Source: Bursaphelenchus xylophilus (Eukaryota > Nematoda > Chromadorea > Rhabditida > Aphelenchoididae). Taken from it: a stretch of DNA of 64,000 nt. Shown here one piece after another: positions 1-52,566 of the stretch. The DNA lies in NCBI GenBank assembly GCA_904066235.2, contig CAJFCV020000003.1:1-64000 (forward strand), given 5' to 3'. The notes under the pieces were generated by a model. The model did not search any database and was not told the DNA's origin. It was given only the letters and a program-made list of their open reading frames with translations. The position numbers and the translations under genes were made by a program. Positions within the stretch are counted from its first letter, which is position 1, and the number at the start of each line of letters is the position of its first letter.

Positions 1-20
1 CGTTCAGTTACGTATTGCTA

Positions 21-3000
21 ATTACGCCGGTAGCGAGCGAAAAACTTTGATATTGTACTAGAAAAGTGTTTAGAAAAAAAGTGAATTAGCGATGTCGGAG
101 TGAAGGGACGTGGCATACACCGTTCGAACCATAATCGAATGAAATTTCAGAATGCGGAGTTTCAGCTTCTTTGGAGTCAAATTACGCCGGTAGCGAGCGA
201 AAAACTTTGATATTGTACTAGAAAAGTGTTTAGAAAAAAAGTGAATTAGCGATGTCGGAGTGAAGGGACGTGGCATACACCGTTCGAACCATAATCGAAT
301 GAAATTTCAGAATGCGGAGTTTCAGCTTCTTTGGAGTCAAATTACGCCGGTAGCGAGCGAAAAACTTTGATATTGTACTAGAAAAGTGTTTAGAAAAAAA
401 GTGAATTAGCGATGTCGGAGTGAAGGGACGTGGCATACACCGTTCGAACCATAATCGAATGAAATTTCAGAATGCGGAGTTTCAGCTTCTTTGGAGTCAA
501 ATTACGCCGGTAGCGAGCGAAAAACTTTGATATTGTACTAGAAAAGTGTTTAGAAAAAAAGTGAATTAGCGATGTCGGAGTGAAGGGACGTGGCGTACAC
601 CGTTCGAACCATAATCGAATGAAATTTCAGAATGCGGAGTTTCAGCTCCTTTGGAGTCAAATTACGCCGGTAGCGAGCGAAAAACTTTGATATTGTACTA
701 GAAAAGTGTTTAGAAAAAAAGTGAATTAGCGATGTCGGAGTGAAGGGACGTGGCATACACCGTTCGAACCATAATCGAATGAAATTTCAGAATGCGGAGT
801 TTCAGCTTCTTTGGAGTCAAATTACGCCGGTAGCGAGCGAAAAACTTTGATATTGTACTAGAAAAGTGTTTAGAAAAAAAGTGAATTAGCGATGTCGGAG
901 TGAAGGGACGTGGCATACACCGTTCGAACCATAATCGAATGAAATTTCAGAATGCGGAGTTTCAGCTTCTTTGGAGTCAAATTACGCCGGTAGCGAGCGA
1001 AAAACTTTGATATTGTACTAGAAAAGTGTTTAGAAAAAAAGTGAATTAGCGATGTCGGAGTGAAGGGACGTGGCATACACCGTTCGAACCATAATCGAAT
1101 GAAATTTCAGAATGCGGAGTTTCAGCTCCTTTGGAGTCAAATTACGCCGGTAGCGAGCGAAAAACTTTGATATTGTACTAGAAAAGTGTTTAGAAAAAAA
1201 GTGAATTAGCGATGTCGGAGTGAAGGGACGTGGCATACACCGTTCGAACCATAATCGAATGAAATTTCAGAATGCGGAGTTTCAGCTTCTTTGGAGTCAA
1301 ATTACGCCGGTAGCGAGCGAAAAACTTTGATATTGTACTAGAAAAGTGTTTAGAAAAAAAGTGAATTAGCGATGTCGGAGTGAAGGGACGTGGCATACAC
1401 CGTTCGAACCATAATCGAATGAAATTTCAGAATGCGGAGTTTCAGCTTCTTTGGAGTCAAATTACGCCGGTAGCGAGCGAAAAACTTTGATATTGTACTA
1501 GAAAAGTGTTTAGAAAAAAAGTGAATTAGCGATGTCGGAGTGAAGGGACGTGGCATACACCGTTCGAACCATAATCGAATGAAATTTCAGAATGCGGAGT
1601 TTCAGCTCCTTTGGAGTCAAATTACGCCGGTAGCGAGCGAAAAACTTTGATATTGTACTAGAAAAGTGTTTAGAAAAAAAGTGAATTAGCGATGTCGGAG
1701 TGAAGGGACGTGGCATACACCGTTCGAACCATAATCGAATGAAATTTCAGAATGCGGAGTTTCAGCTTCTTTGGAGTCAAATTACGCCGGTAGCGAGCGA
1801 AAAACTTTGATATTGTACTAGAAAAGTGTTTAGAAAAAAAGTGAATTAGCGATGTCGGAGTGAAGGGACGTGGCGTACACCGTTCGAACCATAATCTAAT
1901 GAAATTTCAGAATGCGGAGTTTCAGCTTCTTTGGAGTCAAATTACGCCGGTAGCGAGCGAAAAACTTTGATATTGTACTAGAAAAGTGTTTAGAAAAAAG
2001 TGAATTAGCGATGTCGGAGTGAAGGGACGTGGCATACACCGTTCGAACCATAATCGAATGAAATTTCAGAATGCGGAGTTTCAGCTCCTTTGGAGTCAAA
2101 TTACGCCGGTAGCGAGCGAAAAACTTTGATATTGTACTAGAAAAGTGTTTAGAAAAAAAGTGAATTAGCGATGTCGGAGTGAAGGGACGTGGCATACACC
2201 GTTCGAACCATAATCGAATGAAATTTCAGAATGCGGAGTTTCAGCTTCTTTGGAGTCAAATTACGCCGGTAGCGAGCGAAAAACTTTGATATTGTACTAG
2301 AAAAGTGTTTAGAAAAAAAGTGAATTAGCGATGTCGGAGTGAAGGGACGTGGCGTACACCGTTCGAACCATAATCGAATGAAATTTCAGAATGCGGAGTT
2401 TCAGCTCCTTTGGAGTCAAATTACGCCGGTAGCGAGCGAAAAACTTTGATATTGTACTAGAAAAGTGTTTAGAAAAAAGTGAATTAGCGATGTCGGAGTG
2501 AAGGGACGTGGCATACACCGTTCGAACCATAATCGAATGAAATTTCAGAATGCGGAGTTTCAGCTTCTTTGGAGTCAAATTACGCCGGTAGCGAGCGAAA
2601 AACTTTGATATTGTACTAGAAAAGTGTTTAGAAAAAAAGTGAATTAGCGATGTCGGAGTGAAGGGACGTGGCATACACCGTTCGAACCATAATCGAATGA
2701 AATTTCAGAATGCGGAGTTTCAGCTTCTTTGGAGTCAAATTACGCCGGTAGCGAGCGAAAAACTTTGATATTGTACTAGAAAAGTGTTTAGAAAAAAGTG
2801 AATTAGCGATGTCGGAGTGAAGGGACGTGGCATACACCGTTCGAACCATAATCGAATGAAATTTCAGAATGCGGAGTTTCAGCTTCTTTGGAGTCAAATT
2901 ACGCCGGTAGCGAGCGAAAAACTTTGATATTGTACTAGAAAAGTGTTTAGAAAAAAGTGAATTAGCGATGTCGGAGTGAAGGGACGTGGCATACACCGTT

Positions 3001-5419
3001 CGAACCATAATCGAATGAAATTTCAGAATGCGGAGTTTCAGCTTCTTTGGAGTCAAATTACGCCGGTAGCGAGCGAAAAACTTTGATATTGTACTAGAAA
3101 AGTGTTTAGAAAAAAAGTGAATTAGCGATGTCGGAGTGAAGGGACGTGGCATACACCGTTCGAACCATAATCGAATGAAATTTCAGAATGCGGAGTTTCA
3201 GCTTCTTTGGAGTCAAATTACGCCGGTAGCGAGCGAAAAACTTTGATATTGTACTAGAAAAGTGTTTAGAAAAAAAGTGAATTAGCGATGTCGGAGTGAA
3301 GGGACGTGGCATACACCGTTCGAACCATAATCGAATGAAATTTCAGAATGCGGAGTTTCAGCTTCTTTGGAGTCAAATTACGCCGGTAGCGAGCGAAAAA
3401 CTTTGATATTGTACTAGAAAAGTGTTTAGAAAAAAAGTGAATTAGCGATGTCGGAGTGAAGGGACGTGGCATACACCGTTCGAACCATAATCGAATGAAA
3501 TTTCAGAATGCGGAGTTTCAGCTCCTTTGGAGTCAAATTACGCCGGTAGCGAGCGAAAAACTTTGATATTGTACTAGAAAAGTGTTTAGAAAAAAAGTGA
3601 ATTAGCGATGTCGGAGTGAAGGGACGTGGCATACACCGTTCGAACCATAATCGAATGAAATTTCAGAATGCGGAGTTTCAGCTTCTTTGGAGTCAAATTA
3701 CGCCGGTAGCGAGCGAAAAACTTTGATATTGTACTATTAGGTTGTCCAACAAATAATGACCCTCTGTGGAGGGGCGAAATTTAAACCTCTTCAAAGGAAA
3801 ACGATGGTAAATTTCAAATATTATAACATTTTGTGGCTGATTTCGACTTTCGTTTGATGTATCGATTTATCATATTCAAGATTAAATTGTAATGTAGCTA
3901 ATCGAAATTATCAAAAAAAAGTCGGTTCTTTCTCGTCTTCTTGGGCAAAAACAGGATGCGAAGAAGTTTCAGAAGCTACGCAAAGTATCAACGCTATGTT
4001 CGACTAGTGTGTTCAGTCTGAACACGGTGAAACGATGGTTAAAAATTACGATTTGACGGCAAGGGACCCAAAGATAAAGTACGGAATCCAAACCTTATCA
4101 AGTTACCCTGAGGTCATCAGTTGACGAACATCCTAGAATCAACATCCAACGCGTCTCTGACATCCTTCAGAAAGCCATTGAAATATCGACGGCTAACCAT
4201 TCGATGTCGATGGAATTCAAAAATGCCCGGCAACCGCCCATATTGTTGGATCAAACAAAAATGGAAGCATTATTTCTCGCGTTTGCGTGCCTGGATCGAA
4301 TCGTTGCCTCTGGTGAAAAGGGACTACTGAAGGACAAACCAGACCAGATATGCTGAACGGAGTCCTCCGAGGGTATCATTTGCGGCTTTTCGTCAAAGGC
4401 CCATTCCCCAACACCCAAAGGCTGACTAGTTATTAATGGTGCAGCATGGGCATAGTACAATACAGCTTCTTGAAAGCTGGCCAAAATGTAGATACGATCC
4501 CCTACTGTATCCAGATAGACAGTTTGTGGCAGCGTCTGTCTTCAACGATGCGTCGCAGAAGTCCAAAATTCATGGCGGCTACAGGAACCTCTGCTGAAGA
4601 TGAGTACTCAAGCCGATTTAATAGAGATACGAGACTGTCCCTCAGTCCAGCCTATTTGTGTCAAAGCTGGCCTCTTACTATCGATTCCAAGAATCTAACA
4701 CGTTTCATCAGTGGTAGGAATTCGACAATCAAGACGCCCCATGAAGGAGGCCCTTCAAAGAAAGTTTCATCGGCTCCAGAAGCCGGGGTTCCTAACTACA
4801 GACATAAAAAAACTTTTTGGCACATTGTAACAAGCGTGATAAAGCACGTGATAATTATTTTGATTAAATAGATCGCAGTTATTACGGTAGATTTTGCCGA
4901 AAAAAATAAATTTTTTGAAGGGTCATTATTTGTTGGACAACCTAATAGAAAAGTGTTTAGAAAAAAAGTGAATTAGCGATGTCGGAGTGAAGGGACGTGG
5001 CATACACCGTTCGAACCATAATCGAATGAAATTTCAGAATGCGGAGTTTCAGCTTCTTTGGAGTCAAATTACGCCGGTAGCGAGCGAAAAACTTTGATAT
5101 TGTACTAGAAAAGTGTTTAGAAAAAAAGTGAATTAGCGATGTCGGAGTGAAGGGACGTGGCATACACCGTTCGAACCATAATCGAATGAAATTTCCAGAA
5201 TGCGGAGTTTCAGCTTCTTTGGAGTCAAATTACGCCGGTAGCGAGCGAAAAACTTTGATATTGTACTAGAAAAGTGTTTAGAAAAAAAGTGAATTAGCGA
5301 TGTCGGAGTGAAGGGACGTGGCATACACCGTTCGAACCATAATCGAATGAAATTTCAGAATGCGGAGTTTCAGCTTTTTTGGAGTCAAATTACGCCGGTA
5401 GCGAGCGAAAAACTTTGAT
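21..5419. repeat. 160-bp satellite array, about 26 copies
   Basis: Unit starts (ATTACGCCGG) fall at 21, 181, 341 and so on to 3697, then at 5068, 5229 and 5389. Units are 160 bp; a few are 159 bp through loss of one A in a poly-A run, and one is 161 bp. Copies are nearly identical. The array begins after only 20 bp of unrelated sequence and ends sharply at about 5419. It is interrupted at 3735 by a mariner-like element and resumes at 4946. Every third copy in the left part carries a C instead of T near the end of the unit (648, 1128, 1608, 2087), a three-unit higher-order period. The minus strand reads open for 68 codons per unit because the unit has few stops in that frame; I regard this as non-coding. 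Confidence 0.97.
3737..4945 (+). mobile_element. mariner-like element with broken transposase
   Basis: The 1,209-bp element has perfect 27-bp terminal inverted repeats (3737-3763 and 4919-4945, beginning TTAGGTTGTCCAAC) and a duplicated TA (3735-3736 and 4946-4947) inside a satellite unit. The satellite reads on continuously when the element is removed, so the insertion came after the array formed. The plus strand holds frame-shifted, stop-ridden stretches resembling a mariner transposase: a helix-turn-helix-like piece near 4025-4060 (NTVKRWLK) and a catalytic-region-like piece around 4446-4540 (GIVQYSF, DSLWQRL). No intact transposase remains, so the copy would have needed a transposase supplied elsewhere, or decayed after insertion. 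Confidence 0.93.
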
Positions 5420-5813
5420 AGCCGACCGGGGCCCCGCTAAGAATGCAATCGACACAATGACTAAAATTTCAGTCTCAAAAGCGAAAATTAGGGTTGCCAA
5501 TAAAAATAAAACGCAGAGCCAAATGCAGTTAGGTCTACTGAAGTATATCCCATGATAATGGATATTTTTTGTTTCAAAATTTTTTGGGGTGTGTGAAATG
5601 GACAAAACAGTGAGGGGGTTTGAACTACCCTGAACTACACCAAGGCCCAAAAAAATGTGGTATGTCCTCGTAATGAGCCAGTATTTACATTTTAGTTCGG
5701 CCCCCGGCCCGGCCACTCGACACCTGAACAAGTTGATTAATGAAGCACCCCGGAGTACTACCACAGTACTTCCCCAGTTCTGATTCCACTAGAAGACGGT
5801 CACAAACACTTTT

Positions 5814-8110: not shown

Positions 8111-11100
8111 TTACTTTGATTTCCGTCCCCACTTATTGTTTGTCGGTGAAGCATTCTTCTCTTTTTGCTTGCCATGATTCTCCAAATGTCGGTCTTTCTT
8201 CGCTCGTTTGGACTTATTTGTGAACATTTTTCCTCTGGGATAAAAATCTAGCTCCGGAGCGTCCGGTTTGCAGTATTTGTCTCGTGCCTTTTCGATCGCT
8301 TCGCACCATTCGTTTGCATGACTATCTGGGTCGTAAAGGAAGTACGTCCGTAGCGGCTGAAAGCGTTGGAGTTAGAAATCAAACACTTCTTTTCATACTT
8401 GTTCCGCTACATGATCAAAAGTGAGGTCAAAAGTAGATATTTTTATTCCGAAAACCTTACCGTGTGAATGAAGAACGTGTGAAAGTTTTTAGCCTCGGTC
8501 CTTAACGATGGGGTTATGGGGATTTCTCCTCTCAATTCTTTCATGTCAGGATCAACGTAGAACAACCTGGGACCCTCTGTCAGCAAAAACATGCGTCGTC
8601 TGGCGAACATCCCTTTCTTTTTGTCAATAAGGCCTGATCGTAAAATAAGGTTGTCCTCCACGAACCGATGGTAGGAGTGGTCTTTCCTTTGTGCATCTAG
8701 CAAGCCTTTTCGAACGGCTTCCTCGGACTTCTCCTGCTTTGGCATCGCCGTCTTCGTAGGCTGAGAAGGCGATGGAGTAAACAACTCATCTAAACCCATT
8801 AGCCGCGCCATGGTTTTTCGCGTAAGTCCCGGCTCCATATGTTCGGGCACCTTAAAGTTTGAGTAGAAAGCTGGCTGGTTTCCGGAAGCAGGGAGAAATG
8901 GTTTCAACTCCGGTGGACTGCTGTTTGTAATATTGTTGAAGTCAACGTTCTAAAATAATTTAGAATTTATTTGACGTATCTTAAGACTGGATTACTAACA
9001 GCTCCCGTTTACAGCTACCTACCTCGAAAAATTTGTGCCCCTTAATTGCTTCAGCTCCATTATGACCTAGCCGTTTCGTCGGCTCCAGCACGAGCAACTC
9101 CTGGATTAGTTCGGCGGCGACTGCATCAAAGCCTTGAGGTATCTTGTAATCCAATTGTGTAATTTTCTTGGTGACTTGATATTCATTGATTCCCCGGAAC
9201 GGCGGCTGTCCTGATATCATCTGATACAAAATACATCCCAACGCCCAAAAATCGGCCTCCGGACCACAGGTATGAGACTGCGCTACCTCAGGCGAAATAT
9301 AAAAAGCAGTGCCGACAAAGGACCCCCGTTCCTTGCGCATAGTCTCCCCATTCTTTTGGCTCATAATTCGACGGACTTGTGATGGTTCTGAAAGGAATTA
9401 TCACTGTTTTGGATATGCGTCGAGAAAGCTTCAAAATTGGCCAGTACCAACTCACCGTCTCCTTCAAAACCTTGAACCTTTGCAGAACCAAAGTCAGTTA
9501 CCATGATATGCCAGTCCTTTTTGATCAGAATATTTTCCGGCTTCAGATCACGGTGAATGACCCCGCAACGATGTATGAAGTCAAGGGCTTCCAGGATCTC
9601 ACTCGCAAAGAATCTCGAGACATTTAGGTCGAAGGAACCGAGACGACGAAGCCACTCCAATAATTCGCCATGCGGCGCGTACTCCATCACAAAACCTGAA
9701 TTATCGTGTATCACAAAATGTTTGCGTTTAATAGCGTATTAAGCAATAGTTTTCATTTTTTAAGGTTGTTCAACGAAGGTGTTTTTGTGAACATGCAAAA
9801 AAATATTGGCTCAAGAATCCCATGCTGTCTCATTGAGCCAATAAACTGTTAGTTTTTTTTTTCATGTTGCTGACTATAAACAAGAGACAAGTGTTTTCAA
9901 ATCAAACGTAAGCAACAAAATGTTGTTTTTTTTAACTAAGTAGAACGCTAATGCCTTATGTTAGCCTTTTTGAACTCCAGTGGACAACATTTTACGGCCC
10001 TATTCCCGGAAAGTGGGTCGGATTAAAGTACGGCGGCAGACTTTAGAACAAAAACATGTTTACGCCGTCGGGAGTGAGTCTTCCGCGAGATTGCGAAACA
10101 ATTTGTCGAAACTACTATATCAGATAGTTACTTTGACTCATCCGAAAACCATAAAATACGTATTTGCTAAGGGCAATATTTAAATAGATGTTCTGATTAA
10201 GTTATAACCGACTTACATATTCTTTCATTGTTTTCTTGAAACGAGCTATGAAGTTTGGCTATGAAAGGATGCCCCCCAAAGCCATGATGTAATGTCGTCA
10301 TAATATCCTTTTCCCGAACGACGTACGGCAACTGAAATGCGTTATTATAAGGCGAAATGCGGCAAAGATGGACTGCGCAGTCCAAAAGTTGAAAACGGCT
10401 AGATGCATACTCACCTTTCGTTCACGTTTTATGCCTTTTTTGCTCATTATCTTTATCGCATATTGCTCTCCACTTTTGACATCTTGAACATGGTAAACAC
10501 TCCCAAAACTGCCGTCTCCCAGGGTTCGCACAAAGTAGAAGTCAGCCGTCTTTTCCGTGGGCGCTTTCAGTCGCTGGTTGTGTCGTCTAACCCTGGAGAA
10601 CATCAGTCGGATCGTATCCGTTTTTGTCAATGGCCCAAAAGTCGGATAGCCATTTTGTACAACCTTTTCGGCATTTGACTCGTTTTCTTGATCAAAATTG
10701 TCAAATGCATGGGGTCCGTAGTCTTCGTAATAATCGTCAGCTTTATCTTCACTCCGCGCAGTCAAACTGGGCGGACTCAAGAACGAGGTGTACTTGTTCC
10801 ACTGTGCTAGAGAACTGGCCGCGGTCGACGGCTGTATGTCTTGTAGATCGACAGTGTCGCTGAGCTCTGCCCGAAGCATATGTGCCTGCATTGGTTCCGC
10901 AAACGCGGTCTGTTTCTCGGCTTTAAAAGTCGCCTTCTTGAGTCCCACTGATGGTTCAAGCTCATTCTTCAGAAGGTGTGACGGTTCACCCATTGTAGAG
11001 AACGGTGAATCCATGGGGGTCAGTGGCATTCCCATCGGCATCCCCGGATTGGCTTTAAGACCGGCAAACGTTGAGGACAAGGCGTTTACCTGCATGGAGG

Positions 11101-11533
11101 CGGCTATTGCAGCGTCCGCCCCCTCGGACAGGTGGAGCTGCTGCGCCGCGACAAATTGGTAATTAGGGACAGTCATTGGAATCGAGATCTCTTCGCCCTT
11201 CTCGTTTGTTGCGACAAATTTCCCAACAACGGGCTGGAATGCTTCAAGTGGGCTCATCGTTGAAGTTGCCGACGACTTCTTTCTTGAATTGAGCGATGAA
11301 CTAGTAGAAACTGCCGAAATTTCGGACTCTTCGCTTGTACTGGATTTAATTTTGCGCTTTGCAGACCCTGACGGTGAAATTATAACGTCGTCTTCGTCGC
11401 TTTGCTTGTGTGCGGAGGTCGATGCAGCCGTTCCAGACAGTTGATCTGTTTCGTCGAGAAAGTCAGTAAGTTTTCTACGAACTTCTTCTTGATAAGGAGG
11501 CATCTCTTTGCCATGCGTTTTTTCGTTTTCCAT
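8111..11533 (-). CDS. pdk-1: 3-phosphoinositide-dependent protein kinase 1 (PDK1)
   Basis: This master kinase phosphorylates the activation loop of AGC kinases such as AKT and SGK downstream of PI3-kinase. Six exons (11533-10415, 10331-10217, 9695-9456, 9387-9023, 8949-8461, 8356-8111) sum to 857 codons plus stop with matching phases. Kinase landmarks: glycine loop LGDGSFGSV (about 338-346), AIK lysine 361, HRDLKPEN at 459, DFG at 479, and activation loop SFVGTAFY, where Ser514 matches the autophosphorylated serine of human PDK1. A C-terminal PH domain (about 712-815) includes RSGLIDKKKGMFARRRMF. The first about 330 residues are Ser-, Glu- and Ala-rich without a recognised domain and make the protein longer than most PDK1s. 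The start ATG directly follows CACTTTCAG, a likely trans-splice acceptor. Confidence 0.95.
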
Positions 11534-12129
11534 CTGAAAGTGAATTATTCATTCACGCAAAAGTTTTCTGGGCACGGATAGATACATGCACTAGACCGAC
11601 GCCAATAAACATCTAGCTTAAGGAATCGTTAAAGAATCCGTACAAGCACCAGTAATCCCACTCTAACCTACTGTCAAAACTCAAAATTTCATTTAACACA
11701 CGTCACTGCCGCTGTTTTTACGGTCACAAAAAATGAAATGGGAATAAAATTAAACGCAAAAAACTAATATTAATGGTGTTTTTGAAACTTCGCTGGCGTA
11801 AACAGCCAGATAATGGAAGCATTAAGGCACGCCCTCTTTCCAGGTCCAGATACATATATATATTAGTACAAAAAAACAGAAAAATAAAAAGTGCAAAGGA
11901 CAATTTGCGTAAAGTTAGAACGCAGCATAAGATCGATTGGCTTAAACAATATATGTATTTAGCTTACCCGAGCTTTACAAAAAGTCAACAATGCGAAATA
12001 CCTTTGCAAATTGGTTCCTCTGAAGCACTACACATTTTGCAATAATTTTTTCAATGCTATAGACAACAGCAGTAGGAAAAAGTTTCTTAATGTGTTTTCA
12101 AATAAACAAACGTTAGGGAAAAATACTAG

Positions 12130-16518: not shown

Positions 16519-19500
16519 TTACTTCTCTCTCGCAATTAATTTGAACTCCTCAGGACGAAGGAGCTCCTTGACCACAGCGGTTTCCAGTTTGTCGAGTTTT
16601 TCGACCACTGATGAAACGTCTTTCCGGTCGATTCCGGGCTCAGTAATCAGCTCAATGTAATACTTCACCTTCGGTTCTGTGCCGGACGCGCGCAGAGTGA
16701 TGATGGACCCAGTTTCCAGGGTGTACGTGATCATGGGAGAGCTGGCAGAAGGGGGAAGTGTCTGGAACAATTTAGACATTTTTCAACAGGCTTTGCGATG
16801 CATAGAATGCATGGTATAAACCACATAAAGAGTATTTTTTCTCTCCAACCTTTTTTCTCTACAGGGTGGGCCACTCGAAACTGACAAGTTGTTTCTTTGA
16901 ACTTCTCCGCGGAGGCTCCGCGGAGAAAAAACTACTTCTAAAATTTAGATTTTTCTGTAGCTGAGACCCGCCATTTTCAACCGACTGAATTTCAAAAATA
17001 TATATTTTAAACTGACCTTTCCATGCCTTCCCAAAGTTTTGAAAAATTATTTTCAAGCCGAAACCGCTAAAACTTACAGGGGAAGTACTCCAAGTGAGAC
17101 GCTCAGATTTTCTTTAAATTTTGCACACACGTCGGGTATGGGCTAAACATGAATTCCCGAAAGTTTTAGCTCGCGCTTTGCAAGCGCCGCGTAGATATCG
17201 AACGATTTTTGCCGCCGAGAGAGCACACTAAACGTGGAGAGCGGTCAGAGAGAAAAGCGTTTTTTGGCCATAACTTTGTTAGCTTGGTGCGGAAAAATTT
17301 GATTTTTTGTAGAAACATTATCCTTTACGGTTGAAATAGACATGAAACTTTTCGTGCCGAAATTCGGCAAAGAGTCAAAAAAAAAATTTTCGCCGACTTT
17401 CGATCTAACAAGGAAAGTACTTTTATGGGGGCTCCTACTTTTTGACGGGACATATCTCAAAAAATCAGAAAAAATGTGCTGATCAAGGATATATAAATCT
17501 TAGCTGCCCATTTTAGGTTTTTAGGGGTGAAAACTCAATCGGAAGTTGACTTAAAGTCCTATATGAACCCCTTTTCGCTTAATTTTTCACAGGTTTACAA
17601 TTTTTATTCTGGCTTAAAATGATGTTTAATGAGTTTCTAAGACGTAATAAATCAGTCTTGGCCCAAAAATTTATTTTTCCGACCTTCATCTTCAAAAAAA
17701 GTTAATTCGGCCCAAAAGGGAAATCAAACCCGTGCGGCGTCCTCCCTCTTGATTCCCAAACTACGGCACTAACCACTCGGCCACACCGCTCTCTTCCGAA
17801 GGAAGAGACCGAGCGCGCTTTTTATCGTTTCGATTGCCTGCGCCTTTTGTAGGGAAATTAAGCCAATTTTTGGGCATTTTCAACCATAAAAACCTAAAAT
17901 GGGCAGCTAAGATTTATATATCCTTGATCAGCACATTTTTTCTGATTTTTTGAGATATGTCCCGTCAAAAAGTAGGAGCCCCCATAAAAGTACTTTCCTT
18001 GTAAAAATCTCGGTTGTTTCTGCAAAGCGCGAGCTAGGATTCTCGCATATACCTTAGAAAAAATTATTTTAAATTTGCGCCAAGTTTCATCAAAATCTAA
18101 GCGTCGCACTTGGAGTACTTCCCTAGTAAGTCCGAGAAAGACAACTGAAAATCATCCCAAAAATTTTAGCGGTTGGCACGAAAATAATTTTTCAAAACTT
18201 TGGGAAGGCATAGAAAGGCCAATTCAAAAAAAATTTTGTTTTTGAAATTCAATCAGTTAAAAATGGCGGGTCTCAGCTCCAGAAAAGCATAAATTTTAGG
18301 AAAATCGGCGCACTCTCCGCGGAGAAATTCAAAGAAACAACCTGTCAGTGTCGAGTGGCCCACCCTGTACAAAATTTCAAAAATCTATTTTTTTTCAAAA
18401 TTTGCCCCGTTCACTTCACCATAACCATTCATCTGGCGGGTCATCCGATAAAACGACCGGCCGCTTACGATCTCAAATTTTTACACCACTCTACCCCCAC
18501 ATACCGCGCCTTTTGTCGTATTGTACACAGTCAAGTCTCGGACGTCGACCACTTTCACTCCATTGATGGTAGCTGGCGGATTATAGCTGACCGTCTCGAA
18601 GATCTTGGCGGTCACACTTTTCTCCGGTACGATCCAATAAGAATTCCGGGTCACGTGGTACCCATACTTCTTGAACAATTCGAACAATTCGTCGCTGAGT
18701 CGAGTCTTCCTCTTCGTCCAAAGGTCGTTCGCTATTTCCGCAAAGATGGCTGCTACGGAAACCCCGTCCTTGTCCAGGGTGCATCCCGGCATGTAGCCAA
18801 TCGATTCTTCCCAGCCGAGAATCACAGTTTTGCCTAAAAATCATCGAACAATCGTTAGTTTCCGGAAACATTCGTCCTATCGGAGCTCAAAAGAGTGATT
18901 GAAACCTGCCTTCCTTCCTCTTTTTGTCCGCCAGATTTCCGATCCACTTGAAGCCGGTTAGCGCGACGTCCTGTTTGAATCCCTCCTTCGACGCCATCGT
19001 CTTGGCGAATTGCGAAGACACCGCACTGTTGAGGACGTACACATCGCTAAAGTTGGCCGTGGGATTCTCAGCGCTCCAATGGCGCCATGTCCATTCGGTG
19101 AGGATAACGCCCATCTCGTTGCCTGTGAAAGCGCGCCACGAGCCGCTAAAAACACAGAGCCGGTTAATTTCACTCAAAGATAAAATAAAAGGCTCGTGGA
19201 AAATAAAAACCCCTACTCCTCTTGCTTCTCAGCCACCTGGATGCGATCAGCGTCCGGATCATTGACCAGTAGCACTTGACTTCCATTTCGATCCGCTTCC
19301 TCGAGGCAAAGCTTCAAAACCCGCAGTCCTTCTTCGGGATTCGGATTCGGCACGGTTCGGAAGGTTGGATCGGGCTCTTGTTGCTCCTACACACATCGAT
19401 TTATTTCACTGGTAAGGAAATCATACCTTAACGCTGAATATCGCCGAATCTGGGAATCCAAAGGCCTTGAACATCTTCATTGCGCTTTCGTACCCAACTC

Positions 19501-20864: not shown

Positions 20865-21457
20865 CAAGGAAAGTACTTTTATGGGGGCTCCTACTTTTTG
20901 ACGGGACATATCTCAAAAAATCAGAAAAAATGTGCTGATCAAGGATATATAAATCTTAGCTGCCCATTTTAGGTTTTTATAGGTGAAAATGCCCAAAAAC
21001 TGGCTTATTTTCCCTACAAAAGGTACAGGCATTCGAAACGATAAAAAGCGCAGTCGGTCTCTTCCTTCGGAAGAGAGCGGTGTGGCCGAGTGGCTAGGGC
21101 CGTAGTCTGGAAATCAAGAGGGGGAACGCCGCACGGGTTCGATTTCCCTTTTGGGCTGAATCAACTTTTTTTGAAGTTGATGGTCGGAAAAATAAATTTT
21201 TTGGCCAAGACAGATTTATTACGTCTTAGAAACTCAATAAACATCATTTTAAGCCAAAATAAAAATTGTAAACATGTGAAAAATTAAGCGAAAAGGGGTT
21301 CATATAGGACTTTAAGTCAACTTCCGATTAAATTTTCACCCCTAAAAACCTAAAATGGGCAGCTAAGATTTATATATCCTTGATCAGCACATTTTTTCTG
21401 ATTTTTTGAGATATGTCCCGCCAAAAAGTAGGAGCCCCCATAAAAGTACTTTCCTTG
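20865..21457. mobile_element. Inner TIR element with tRNA-like core (copy 2)
   Basis: A free-standing copy, just upstream of the phosphoglucomutase start, of the element at 17409-18001. It has the same 593-bp length, the same 115-bp arms from CAAGGAAAGTAC, the same GATCAAGGATATATAAATC word and the same tRNA-like centre. That this copy stands alone shows the unit moves independently of the two outer shells in the intron. Confidence 0.9.
21076..21148 (+). other. tRNA-Ser/Leu-like core of element copy 2
   Basis: GTGTGGCCGAGTGGCTAGGG gives an A box with a pairable D stem. GGTTCGATTTCC resembles a B box but departs from the GGTTCGANNCC consensus. The middle has the length of a class II tRNA. The putative acceptor strands do not pair. 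Copy 1 and copy 2 differ mostly by transitions. A role as an internal RNA polymerase III promoter is possible but unproven. Confidence 0.6.
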
Positions 21458-36974: not shown

Positions 36975-37713
36975 ATGGGCGGGCGCACACTTGCGGGCAA
37001 CCACTTTGCGGGCAACCAGTTTGCGGGCAAATTTTTTGCGGGCAGCCACTTTGCGGGCAGCCGACATTTGCGGCCAGCACCGGCATTTGCGGGCAGTCTG
37101 GGACATTTGCGGGCAGGGTCGACAGTTGCGGGCAGCCTGGAAGATTTGCGGGCAGCCGACATTTGCGGGCAACCGACACCTGATTGTGAGGGCAACAGGG
37201 TGGGCGTGGAAAAATTACTATGATATTATATTTTGGAAATTTGCCGACATTTGCGGGCAACCGGCCCTTGAGGATAACAAGGTGGAGGTGAAAAAATTAC
37301 TTCGATATTTTGGAAGTTTTCCGACATTTGCGGGCAGGCAATACTTGCGGGAAACCGACATTTGCGGGCAACAGTTCCAAAAGTTCCAATACAGTCTGTG
37401 TGATTGTTTTTTCCTGTTGCCCGCAAGTGTCGGCTGCCCGCAAATGTCGGCAAATTTCCAAAATATCGCAGTAATATTTTCACCTCCACCCTGTTACCCT
37501 CAGGTGCCGGTTGCCCGCAAGTGTCGGCTGCCCGCAAGTGTCGGTTGCCCGCAAGTGTCCCAGGCTGCCCGCAAGTGTCTCAGCTGCCCGCAAATGTTTC
37601 AGCTGCCCGCAAATGTGACCCCCCAAATTTTGCCCGCAAAGTGGTTGCCCGCAAAAACTTTGCCCGCAAACTGGTTGCCCGCAAAGTGGTTGCCCGCAAG
37701 TGTCGCGACGCCG
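36975..37713. mobile_element. Foldback element built of TTGCGGGCA repeats
   Basis: The left half repeats TTGCGGGCA at irregular 11-28 bp spacing (37010-37175); the right half repeats the complement TGCCCGCAA (37420-37700). The outer about 60 bases of the two ends are close inverted copies (ACACTTGCGGGCAACC, CCAGTTTGCGGGCAAA). The inner arms also match (CAACAGGGTGG, TTTTGGAAATTTGCCGACAT). An extra direct copy of the inner arm lies at 37259-37375. The whole can fold into a long hairpin with its axis near 37390. It has the architecture of foldback elements, with short tandem repeats as inverted termini. The long frames seen on both strands come from the repeat and are not genes. Confidence 0.88.
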
Positions 37714-42273: not shown

Positions 42274-44171
42274 ATGCTGCGCAAAATTCCCAACAGATAC
42301 TCAATTGTTCGCCATTATGCCAAGGACTTGAAATTCGGTGCTGATGGCCGTAAGAACATGCTTGTTGGAATTGATCTTTTGGCTGATGCCGTCGCTGTTA
42401 CAATGGGACCTAAGGTATGCCTTTGGCAATTTTTTTTGTGTTTTAGGTTCACTAATGAGATGTTTTTGTGTGTGAAGTCGCTGGACTTTCTTTATTGAGT
42501 CTTGTCGTTTCAGGGGCGGAATGTGATCATTGAACAGTCATGGGGATCTCCCAAGATCACCAAGGACGGAGTGACTGTTGCCAAGGCTGTTGATCTCGGA
42601 GACAAATACCAGAACCTCGGAGCGCGTCTCGTGCAAGATGTGGCCTCAAAGGCCAATGACGAAGCTGGAGATGGAACCACTTGTGCCACCGTTCTTGCTC
42701 GCGCTATTGCCAAAGAAGGTTTTGAGAACATCAGCAAGGGTGCCAACCCCGTCGAAGTCAGAAAGGGAGTCATGAAGGCTGTTGATACTATTGTCGCTGA
42801 CCTCAAGAAGTTGTCAAAAGATGTTACCACCCCGGAGGAGATCGCGCAAGTTGCAACGATTTCGGCCAATGGCGATAAGAAGATTGGAGACTTGATCTCT
42901 GAAGCCATGAAGAAGGTCGGAAACAAGGGTGTCATCACCGTCAAGGATGGAAAGACCCTTTATGACGAGCTCGAAGTTATTGAGGGATTGAGCTTCGATC
43001 GAGGATTCATCTCTCCTTACTTCATCAACTCTTCGAAGGGCGCCAAAGTCGAGTTCGAAAAAGCTTTGCTTTTGTTCAGCGAGAAGAAGATCTCAAATGT
43101 TCAGGTATGTATTGCATTCAAGGGTCAATGTTGATAACGTTTTAGGACATTGTTCCCGCTCTGGAATTGGCCAACAAATACCGCCGTCCGCTGGTTATCG
43201 TCGCCGAAGACGTCGATGGAGAAGCGCTTACCACCTTGGTCCTCAACAGATTGAAGGTTGGCCTCCAAGTTGCTGCCGTCAAAGCCCCAGGATTTGGTGA
43301 CAATCGCAAGAACACCCTGAAGGATATGGCCATCGCTACTGGCGGAGTTGTTTTCAACGAGGAAGCGAGTCTCACCAAGATTGAAGACATTACCATCGAT
43401 GACTTTGGAGAAGCCGGCGAAGTCACCATCACCAAGGACGACACATTGATCTTGAAAGGAAATGGGCGAACGGAAGAAGTCGAGAAAAGGGTGGCCCAAA
43501 TCCAAGAGGAGATCGAGAGCTCGACTTCGGATTATGAGAAGGAGAAGCTGAACGAGAGATTGGCCAAACTATCCCGAGGCGTCGCTTTGTTGAAGGTTGG
43601 AGGATCATCTGAGGTCGAGGTCAACGAGAAGAAGGACCGAGTAACTGACGCTTTGTGTGCCACTCGCGCAGCTGTTGAGGAGGGTATTGTTCCAGGTGGT
43701 GGTGTCGCCCTTCTGAGATCATTGAAGAGTTTGGACTCTCTTCAAGGAGATAACGATGACCAGAAGGCCGGTAAGGAATGATTTTCACATGTGTTTTTGT
43801 TATCTTTGTCGTTTCGTCAAGAAATTTTTTTAGGTATCAAAATCGTGCAGAAGGCCGTCCGCCAACCCATCTCTACCATTGTTCAGAACGCTGGTCTCGA
43901 AGCCGCCACAATTGTCGCTAAAGTGCTTGAGAACTCGGACGTCAACTTCGGATACGATGCGTTGAACGACAAGTTTGTGAACATGGTCGAAGCTGGTATC
44001 ATCGATCCCACCAAAGTGGTCAGAACTGCTCTCCAAGATGCTGCTGGAGTAGCTTCGCTTTTGGCCACCACTGAGTGCGTCGTTACAGAGATCCCCAAGC
44101 CAGAGCCGGCTGCTGCTGCAGGAGCCGGAGGAATGGGCGGCATGGGTGGAATGGGAGGAATGGGCTTCTAA
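42274..44171 (+). CDS. hsp-60: Mitochondrial chaperonin HSP60 (GroEL)
   Basis: This ATP-dependent folding chamber of the mitochondrial matrix works with HSP10. Four exons (42274-42414, 42514-43104, 43146-43770, 43834-44171) give 564 residues. The N-terminus [18 protein letters not shown] is a basic import signal. Family blocks: [34 protein letters not shown], the nucleotide-binding [41 protein letters not shown] [31 protein letters not shown], and a C-terminal [12 protein letters not shown] tail. An acceptor-like TAATTTAG lies 16 bp before the ATG. AATAAA-type sites follow near 44305. Confidence 0.98.
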
Positions 44172-50667: not shown

Positions 50668-52566
50668 ATGAACAGTTTCGAGGAAAACACTGAGGGCGGA
50701 TCAAAGGGGACGGTTTGCAACCCAACTACGGGGTGAGTTAATAAAATCTAGACCAACAATACCGTCTCAAAAATAGATGACTGAAATTGTATACTTGATT
50801 ACTGAACAAATGTTTTAACAGTTTTTTGCGTTTAATTTGTAACAATTTTTTCAGATTTGCATCAATGCTTCAGTCAAGAATTTTGGGGGAACAAATGGCC
50901 GACTTGCCGGCCTCTTCAAACAACAACATTCATCAACATCATGGACAAGAACACTCGACCGACAGTCGAACGACTAACATCAGGTCGGACAACAACACTG
51001 AGAGTAACGGACGCTTCGACGGAGAAGCCGGACTTCTCACCGGGACGTCAAAGAACTCGATGAAAACCGAACAGTGCGAGGATTCGTGTCGATTCGAGAA
51101 AGGTTCGCGCTCGGATTTACGCAATTTCAACATGAACCAGGCCGACCAATCGAGCCAGGACGAGCCGGACGATAATGCCTCTTTGGGAGGGTCGGCATCG
51201 CCAAAGTCCTCATCCCGTTCTTCATCAAGAGCGTCGCCTTCACTCAACCAACACCGAGTCCAGTTTAAAACCCAAGACCAAGTAGACGATCGCCGCTTGA
51301 GACGTCAGATAGCCAACTGCAATGAGCGGCGGAGAATGCAATCGATTAATGCCGGGTTCCAGGCCCTGCGCCAATTCCTGCCTCAAAAAGGCGGTGATAA
51401 AATGTCGAAAGCCGCCATCCTGCAGCAAACCGCCGACTTGATTTTGACATTGCGGGCTGAAAAAGAGGAACTGGCTTCCCAGCTCCACGGCAGTTTGAAT
51501 CCCGCGCCACCAAGTGATCCAAGCGTCTCGTGTCGGACCACACCAAAGAAGAGACGCATTGATGTCGAGGAGATGGAGGGAAAAGACGACGTTTCAGTCT
51601 ACTTGAAGACGATTGAGGACCTTAAAGCTGCCTTGAATCGAGAACAACAGTTGAGAATACTGTATGAGAAAGAGATCATTGATACTCGACGGAATGCCTC
51701 CACTTCAACCCCGCTGGGACTAGATTCCTCTCTTCTGAACATCAGTGAACTGCTGAGAAAGAATGAAGGTAGGTGTAATCGTGTGATTTCTTCGAACATG
51801 ATGTCTTTGTTTCACCTGCATTTTTGTAGCATTTATGATTTTTTAAAATACTTTCAGCGCTTCAAAGTCCTTGTACTCGACAGCAGGAACGCTCGCCGTT
51901 ATCCATTGCGACTCTAAGTCCCAACCGTGAGCTGGGAAGTCCAGTGCAACATCCACCCAACCTCGGAGGAAATCTATCGCCTCTTCTAAATGTACGAAAG
52001 GCTGTTTTCAACTCGACGTTGCTTCAAAGACCTGGAGCGCTGCAAAACACCTGCTTGCAGGATACCGTAAGAATATTTATTAGACTTGTAGGTCTTACGA
52101 GGAGCGCCTAGCATAATATAAGAAAGAAAAATTCAGAAAAATTGTGTAATCTTGCCTTGTTTTTTAGACCGAGCACTCCAATCAAAATCCCGTCAACGCC
52201 AACAGCCTGCTGGCATCCCAACAAAGCCTTTTGAATCCGGCCTTTCTCACTTCCGCTCTTCTGAATACGGCCCAACCCGACATTCAGCGCTCGATGAATC
52301 TCTCATTGGCTTTCTCGAATCCTCAACAAAGAGCTGCGACAACTACCGTTCAGACTTCCGTGAACAACAGTGTGGAAGCCAGCCTACTGGCCGACAACCG
52401 CAATCTTAACGCTCTTTTTGAAGCCATTCGCCAACTGGAAAACGCGAATCTGAACGCTCAAATCCCGGTTCAACAACGGCTGGCACCGAGTGGGGGGTTC
52501 GCGCCGCCCAATACAGCGGCCAGCTCGCAAAATGGCCAAGTTCCAACTGACCTCTTGGTCCGATGA
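50668..52566 (+). CDS. hlh-11: bHLH transcription factor, AP-4 (TFAP4) type
   Basis: AP-4 proteins bind symmetric E-boxes (CAGCTG) as homodimers. Four exons (50668-50732, 50855-51768, 51858-52066, 52168-52566) give 528 residues. The basic region and helices (about residues 165-230) read RRQIANCNERRRMQSINAGF, ALRQFLPQKGGDKMSKAAIL, QQTADLILTL, with the AP-4 signature NERRRMQSINAGF and KMSKAAILQQTA. A leucine-repeat segment follows (LRAEKEELASQL), and a second coiled coil near 270-300 (LKTIEDLKAALNREQQLRIL), as in AP-4. The N-terminal 160 residues are Ser/Asp/Asn-rich and the C-terminal 170 residues Asn/Gln-rich (LLNPAFLTSALLNTAQ), low-complexity regulatory regions. An acceptor-like CAACTTGCAG lies about 80 bp before the ATG. 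Confidence 0.92.

Follow-up and report, generated by a model that had tools for sequence, protein, structure and literature searches.

The window considered here, that is, the whole stretch of DNA that was analysed, comprises the first 64,000 nucleotides of a contig (C3) of the pine wood nematode Bursaphelenchus xylophilus. It carries two copies of a mobile element with terminal inverted repeats (TIRs) around a transfer RNA (tRNA)-like core, to which a preliminary description of the sequence had drawn attention. The coordinates of both copies and their length of exactly 593 bp were confirmed (Table 1). The inverted arms, put at about 115 bp in that description, are present and turned out to be a little longer: in the 20865 copy, 126 bp matched at 98%. 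For the inverted copy at 17409 the outer 40 bases of the arms were compared, and 40 of 40 were identical. A stop-to-stop reading frame of 180 amino acids is present in neither copy. The cores were described as holding an A box and a near B box, and this was borne out when both strands of the window were scanned with consensus motifs for the two boxes. Allowing one mismatch per box, the scan gave only two A–B pairs, and these are the two cores. In the inverted copy the A box starts at 17783 and the B box at 17730 on the minus strand; the latter reads GGTTTGATTTCC and is one base off. The majority sequence of the family has one mismatch to the consensus in each box. Such a combined score of two or fewer mismatches was reached by none of 1116 overlapping 330-bp background segments taken from the rest of the window.

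Table 1. Positions of the two element copies in the window and of the features within them.
Feature	Position	Strand	Details
Miniature inverted-repeat transposable element (MITE) copy, non-autonomous Tc5-type TIR element	20865..21457	+	593 bp, target-site duplication (TSD) TCA
Second copy of the 593-bp MITE, inverted	17409..18001	-	593 bp, TSD TAA
Left TIR	20865..20990	+	126-bp match to right arm; outer 117 bp of the family majority sequence about 97% identical to the TIR of the C7 Tc5-transposase element
Right TIR	21332..21457	-	98% inverted match to left arm
Hairpin CTCTTCC-TTC-GGAAGAG, directly 5' of the tRNA-like module	21059..21075	+	read from the sequence
tRNA-Ser-like module	21076..21158	+	host class II tRNA covariance model, 27.0 bits
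A box TGGCCGAGTGG	21083..21093	+	
Near B box GGTTCGATTTCC	21136..21147	+	
T7 run, candidate RNA polymerase III (Pol III) terminator	21166..21172	+	family position 302
tRNA-Ser-like module, inverted copy	17708..17787	-	12.5 bits; one change in B box

Next to its boxes, the core was compared with 13 host tRNAs as a whole. The two best matches, in either order, were tRNA-Ser(GCT) with a z-score of 11.4 and tRNA-Ser(AGA) with 11.5. The score for tRNA-Ser(GCT) was 25, while the highest of 500 shuffles reached 16. In the tRNA-Ser alignment 43 of 61 bases are identical, and the alignment spans both boxes without a gap; the A–B spacing of the core is therefore that of tRNA-Ser. A lack of similarity to host tRNA-Ser, which had been named beforehand as a finding that would count against the idea, was thus not observed. 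The core was also matched by a covariance model built from nine host class II tRNAs. The 20865 copy and the inverted copy scored 27.0 and 12.5 bits, with E-values of 1.2e-7 and 0.01 in a 7-kb search and of 2.1e-6 and 0.17 in a 117-kb search. In the latter search, four real host tRNAs of other types scored 37–56 bits.

The core is tRNA-Ser-like and no longer a tRNA gene. ARAGORN reported no tRNA in the 64-kb window. Rfam gave no tRNA in the window at the gathering threshold, and at E-values up to 10 no tRNA match within 20865–21457. Its matches to sR4, MIR478, mir-551, P1, RUF1, MIR8562 and MIR2646 were all under the gathering scores and were set aside. Of the 24 cloverleaf pairs, 14 can form in the family majority sequence and 15 in the 20865 copy, compared with 24 of 24 in two host tRNA-Ser. 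Shuffled sequences gave 10.5 ± 2.3 pairs; 14 pairs were reached by 189 and 15 pairs by 78 of 2000 shuffles. RNA folding of four modules resulted in z-scores of -0.6, -2.3, -1.2 and +0.1, and this mixed outcome gives no general sign of a conserved fold. A tRNA-Ser pattern with tRNA-Ser spacing was found at two places in the genome, both of which are tRNA-Leu according to ARAGORN. Judged by its sequence, the core has the make-up of a putative type-2 Pol III promoter, with boxes at tRNA-like spacing followed by a T run.

The family was then considered in the whole genome (78.25 Mb in eight contigs). With up to three mismatches, the terminal 27 bp were detected at 320 forward and 325 reverse places (about 645 ends; none with the reversed pattern as control), and a 42-bp core pattern at 134 and 122, together 256, places (control 0). 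The spread of promoter-like sequence that had been suggested was confirmed by these core sites. Fetched copies with both ends 480–620 bp apart were collected, leaving out a duplicate of the window copy. The resulting 62 copies were chosen by similarity or exact ends and are biased towards young copies. Identical 3-bp target duplications flank 60 of the 62, all 60 of them TNA, and the insertion context YTNAR was seen in 58. Within the selection range, 49 copies are 593 or 592 bp long. The mean divergence from the majority sequence was 3.4%, which points to a recent spread of the family in a sample that favours young copies. The 593-bp elements are MITEs: they are short, present in many copies, of near-fixed length and without a transposase frame. 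On contig C1, 35 cores were compared with TIR ends by eye, and no free-standing form resembling a short interspersed nuclear element (SINE) was found among them. All 19 exact cores and 14 of 16 listed cores with one mismatch adjoin an exact TIR end; the remaining two lie within one full-length and one diverged MITE copy. A short element of 156 bp (L067, C1:7457548-7457703) consists of little beyond TIR, has TTA on both sides and is without the tRNA-like module. At three further loci of 2.1–2.6 kb (L039–L041; C1:7761600-7764200, 8474544-8477321 and 1834290-1836598) the MITE is interrupted by other sequence. These were considered as coding versions of the MITE and rejected, as no frame was recognisable as a transposase.

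A candidate source of transposase was found by a profile search of the genome with the Tc5 transposase C-terminal domain. This search gave 12 places, 11 of them above the cut-off, and two of the 12 loci (L100 and L101) bear the MITE's own TIR. A complete partner element of 2246 bp with the TSD TTA is located on contig C7 (L114:722-2967). Its single open frame, 427 amino acids counted from the first Met, matched PF04236 with 57.8 bits (cut-off 27.4) and PF03221 with 23.7 bits (cut-off 22.2). The DDE domain PF03184 reached 17.5 bits, under its cut-off of 22. The residues D159, D269 and D307 are invariant in six of six aligned transposase sequences. The outer 117 bp of each TIR are 96.6–97.4% identical between the MITE majority sequence and the C7 element, and the next-best match between the two is a 19-bp stretch surrounding the B box (E 0.002). 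Since it shares its TIR with a Tc5-transposase element, the MITE is of Tc5 type and non-autonomous, and the C7 enzyme presumably mobilises the MITEs. Relatives of Tc5 were also sought by DNA similarity in viral and bacterial genome collections, and none were found there.

The C7 element has TIRs of 340 bp, and each of them contains another tRNA-like module, with the A box at +202, the B box at +246 and a T10 run at +267. We sorted the 12 Tc5-domain loci into four TIR families of our own grouping, F1 to F4, and scored one representative of each for the boxes. In all four the A box is found at +199–202 and the B box at +243–255, in both arms and reading inward. The boxes have 0–2 mismatches in total, and none of the 1116 background segments was as good. 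In F2 (L106) they are located at +200 and +254, in F3 (L099) at +200–201 and +243–244 with one mismatch per box, and in F4 (L138) at +199 and +255 without mismatch. The A motif and the sequence GGTTCG were each present in 15 of 15 F1 arms and in 14 of 15 F2 arms. In the F1–F4 representatives and in the MITE, the B box is followed by a T run of at least six at a distance of up to 65 bp; the background chance of a T6 run within 80 bp is 0.134. The TIRs of the F3 representative are alike up to the B box and diverge right after it, and a separate T6 or T7 run follows in each of them 16–18 bp further on. Transposase identity between F1 and F4 is 31.7% over 416 amino acids; F1 shares 38–41% over 56–144 amino acids with F2 fragments and 38.7% over 62 amino acids with F3. 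The fetched non-tRNA loci (337 kb on both strands, some overlapping) contained 117 A–B pairs with up to two mismatches, and all but two (in L075 and L103) were placed by position inside F1–F4 or MITE-type elements. Eleven fetched non-tRNA loci, mostly with MITE copies, had no such pair.

As an independent approach, a pattern was derived from F1–F4 alone, consisting of a CAAGG end, an A box 180–208 bp further in and a B box 28–46 bp after it. Counting the two arms of one element as two places, it matched at 287 places in the genome, and the reversed control at none. Among the 100 of these places that were listed were TIR families outside the design, named F5 to F8. Twelve loci were fetched (L145–L156), and in 10 of them the paired ends have matching TNA duplications. 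L148 has the duplications TAA/TTA; L154 has AAA/TTT, and its CAAGG does not mark the boundary of an element. In the fetched loci the A box is positioned at +196–206 and the B box at +239–250, and across families the A–B spacing ranges from 43 to 56 bp. The F5 copy in L148 scored 28.1 bits for the Rfam tRNA family, just under the gathering score of 29. The other 11 loci gave no Rfam tRNA match at E-values up to 1, and ARAGORN identified no tRNA in L145–L156. An ancestor without the core, which the preliminary description had allowed for, is not indicated by these data: the nearest sister family F5 and the Tc5-transposase families also have the module. Omitting the CAAGG end raised the number of places to 699 (control 10), and among the 100 listed of these are genes resembling tRNA-Leu, cores of the MITE and members of other classes. 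A different long-TIR sequence was observed in L157 (1-431) and L158 (C1:2744050-2745600). Its arms of at least 415 bp are 99% alike and have one A–B pair each, with no CAAGG and no T run of six in the fetched part; similar plus/minus pairs are present at C1:5289862/5290770 and C1:7670854/7673223. The cassette may also occur outside elements of Tc5 type.

Conservation of the module was compared between and within families, with segment limits that were set after the alignments had been seen for MITE–F5 and for F1 and F2. When one F5 copy was aligned with the majority sequence of the MITE, hairpin and module together had 86 identical bases out of 100 aligned, with 14 gap columns. For spacer and inner part the count was 128 of 210 (61%), with 52 gap columns, and the difference between the module and the rest of the interior was significant (Fisher 6e-6). 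The hairpin stretch at family positions 180–211 has 29 of 32 bases identical in F5. In 14 F1 arms (L143 omitted), positions 197–280 have a single variable column out of 84. Just outside the module 12 of 27 columns vary and just inside it 17 of 54; the outer 169 bp have seven variable columns. A tRNA-like promoter at nearly the same place in related families looks like a kept feature and not like an accident.

We consider it probable that the core of the MITE is a type-2 Pol III promoter-like cassette which is a long-standing trait of the Tc5 lineage and has been kept for a promoter or TFIIIC role. Most likely, the MITE inherited this lineage-wide cassette rather than capturing a tRNA itself, because the cassette recurs in F1–F4 and in F5–F8 and is the best-kept interior part in comparison with the sister family. 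Thus, the initial idea of a DNA transposon that captured a tRNA holds for the TIR transposon with a tRNA-Ser-like core, and probably not for the capture by the MITE. The boxes have stayed and most of the cloverleaf has been lost, which suggests that a promoter or TFIIIC site at the level of the DNA, and not tRNA function, is being preserved.

Several observations, in addition to the late choice of segment limits, speak against a kept promoter cassette. The right arm of the MITE has no module, and L067 has none at all; the cassette therefore seems unneeded for movement itself. Outside its boxes F4 resembles tRNA only weakly (z about 3), and in F8 the first T run of five or six comes only 88–122 bp past the B box. 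A plain tRNA-Ser DNA query with E-values up to 10 found 31 places, of which 20 were fetched, and none of the 31 is at a listed core. The outer TIRs of MITE and F5 (171 of 217 bases identical) did not differ significantly from the module in their conservation, and the F2 copies revealed no constraint on it. In the 62 copies of the MITE, variation amounts to 5.4% in the tRNA-like part, compared with 3.2% before and 4.4% after it. When the most variable columns were removed, the values were 4.0% for the tRNA-like part and 3.9% for the part after it. Percentile ranks of 8 and 41 were obtained for the A box and the B box, respectively, and both boxes are retained in 56 of the 62 copies. Conservation of the boxes above the element background, which had been put forward as a sign of function, is hence seen between families and not among MITE copies. 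This contrast would fit selection on copy-founding elements together with drift in dead MITE copies.

Alternative explanations were weighed against the same data. It is possible, and in our view unlikely, that different tRNAs were acquired separately by the individual Tc5 lineages, or that recombination with tRNA genes of the host replaced the module, as a tRNA at that place might be useful or easily acquired. The nearest tRNA does differ between families in a comparison with 16 host tRNAs of 10 isotypes, which are not the full set: it is Ser for the MITE, F2 and F3, Thr for F5, F7 and F8, Arg for F6 and Lys for F1, with F4 being weak. Against repeated capture, some of the modules are alike beyond the boxes (z 20.7 for MITE–F5 and 6.7 for MITE–F1), part of which is explained by shared tRNA-likeness, and their position is constant within about 20 bp. 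We regard it as improbable that the transposase or another host factor binds the boxes as subterminal sites and that their resemblance to a tRNA is coincidental. Such sites would account for the fixed position, the presence in both arms and the retention across families. They would not account for the tRNA similarity of whole modules (z about 11 for the MITE, 8 for F2 and 10 for F5) or for the F5 copy that nears the Rfam gathering score. In addition, the A–B spacing is variable, and the right arm of the MITE and L067 manage without boxes. Quite improbable is a passive passenger, in which an ancestor of the MITE swallowed a tRNA-Ser gene whose remnant drifts without a role. The mostly lost cloverleaf agrees with this, as does the core not evolving more slowly than the rest within MITE copies. 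It is at odds with a similar cassette at a near-equal distance from the end in F1–F8, in both arms of F1–F4, and with the module being better conserved between MITE and F5 than the rest of the interior; the outcome of the 287-place pattern search weakens it further. Finally, the insertion of a tRNA-derived SINE into a TIR element, to which the tRNA head with A and B boxes might point, is hardly credible, since none of the 35 cores compared on C1 stands alone, similar modules occupy the same place in other TIR families and the copies have TIRs and 3-bp TNA duplications instead of the marks of SINE retroposition.

For the kept promoter cassette we propose the following mechanism. The cassette, made up of A box, B box and T run, reads inward from a position some 200 bp inside the TIR. 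TFIIIC probably binds the boxes and Pol III may transcribe from them, as far as their sequence indicates. TFIIIC and TFIIIB would then be bound near the transposon ends, and a short terminated transcript of roughly 85–140 nt might or might not be made by Pol III. The bound factors would block RNA polymerase II read-through from neighbouring genes into the TIR. Less read-through would yield less double-stranded TIR RNA feeding RNA silencing, and/or the transposon ends would be held in open chromatin. In Caenorhabditis elegans, TIR transposons are silenced through read-through double-stranded TIR RNA. For this reason, and because the cassettes read inward, are followed by a T run and have not kept the cloverleaf, a role as roadblock or insulator is favoured. 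The chances seem to us evenly balanced that Tc5-lineage transposons have kept a Pol III promoter in their TIRs for their own benefit across deep transposase divergence, be it as a roadblock or insulator or as a source of short RNA. If true, each insertion would plant a portable TFIIIC site in the host, amounting to several hundred in this nematode.

The elements resemble Tc5 and Tc4 of C. elegans in the TNA duplication, the YTNAR preference and the long TIRs, and the C7 partner element has the DNA-binding and C-terminal domains of Tc5 transposase. They appear to differ from these in the tRNA-like cassette within the long B. xylophilus TIRs. We know of no report of such a cassette in Tc5 or Tc4. 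Retroposed SINEs characteristically carry Pol III promoters, and DNA transposons are not known to need them. With tRNA-derived SINEs the cassette shares a decayed tRNA in which the A and B boxes survive and the cloverleaf is mostly lost; it is distinct in having DNA transposon ends, 3-bp duplications and an internal position, in both arms of F1–F4. Cassandra elements are long terminal repeat (LTR) retrotransposons bearing 5S RNA promoters. They are similar in having a Pol III gene as a standing part of the terminal repeat, with the difference that an LTR and a 5S type 1 promoter are combined there and a DNA transposon and a tRNA-type (type 2) promoter here. In one open-access library, covered mainly as abstracts and exclusive of subscription papers and Repbase, no description was found of tRNA-like cassettes in the TIRs of Tc5 or other DNA transposons. 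Tc5 elements, MITEs and promoters derived from tRNAs are all familiar individually; as far as open-access abstracts show, their standing combination appears to be undescribed. A cassette that recurs in diverged Tc5 TIRs would be a new component of DNA transposon anatomy and would hint at how such elements could cope with RNA silencing or chromatin. It would also mean that several hundred TFIIIC-type sites here derive from cut-and-paste elements, and some of the tRNA-like pseudogenes found in nematodes may stem from it. Nematode V-arm tRNAs (nev-tRNAs), which are charged with leucine in vitro (PMC4300185), are comparable as unusual class II tRNA-like sequences in nematodes. This identity was set aside for the core, as it is not a recognised tRNA gene. 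The text of PMC4300185 has none of the terms transposon, repeat, pseudogene, origin and Bursaphelenchus.

Other features of the window include tandem repeats and host genes. A 160-bp unit is repeated in tandem at 20-3736 (23.3 copies, 99%), and a second block at 4946-5420 holds three copies, apparently of the same unit. A degenerate minisatellite at 37035-37336 is made up of TTTGCGGGCAGCCGACA-like units, and similar units were seen within locus L074. Host gene exons were recognised at 10298-11548 on the minus strand, with a kinase-like stretch by eye, and on the plus strand at 42499-43781, encoding a Cpn60/HSP60 chaperonin (PF00118, first frame scanned), and at 50799-51917, encoding an AP-4/HLH-11-type basic helix-loop-helix factor (PF00010).
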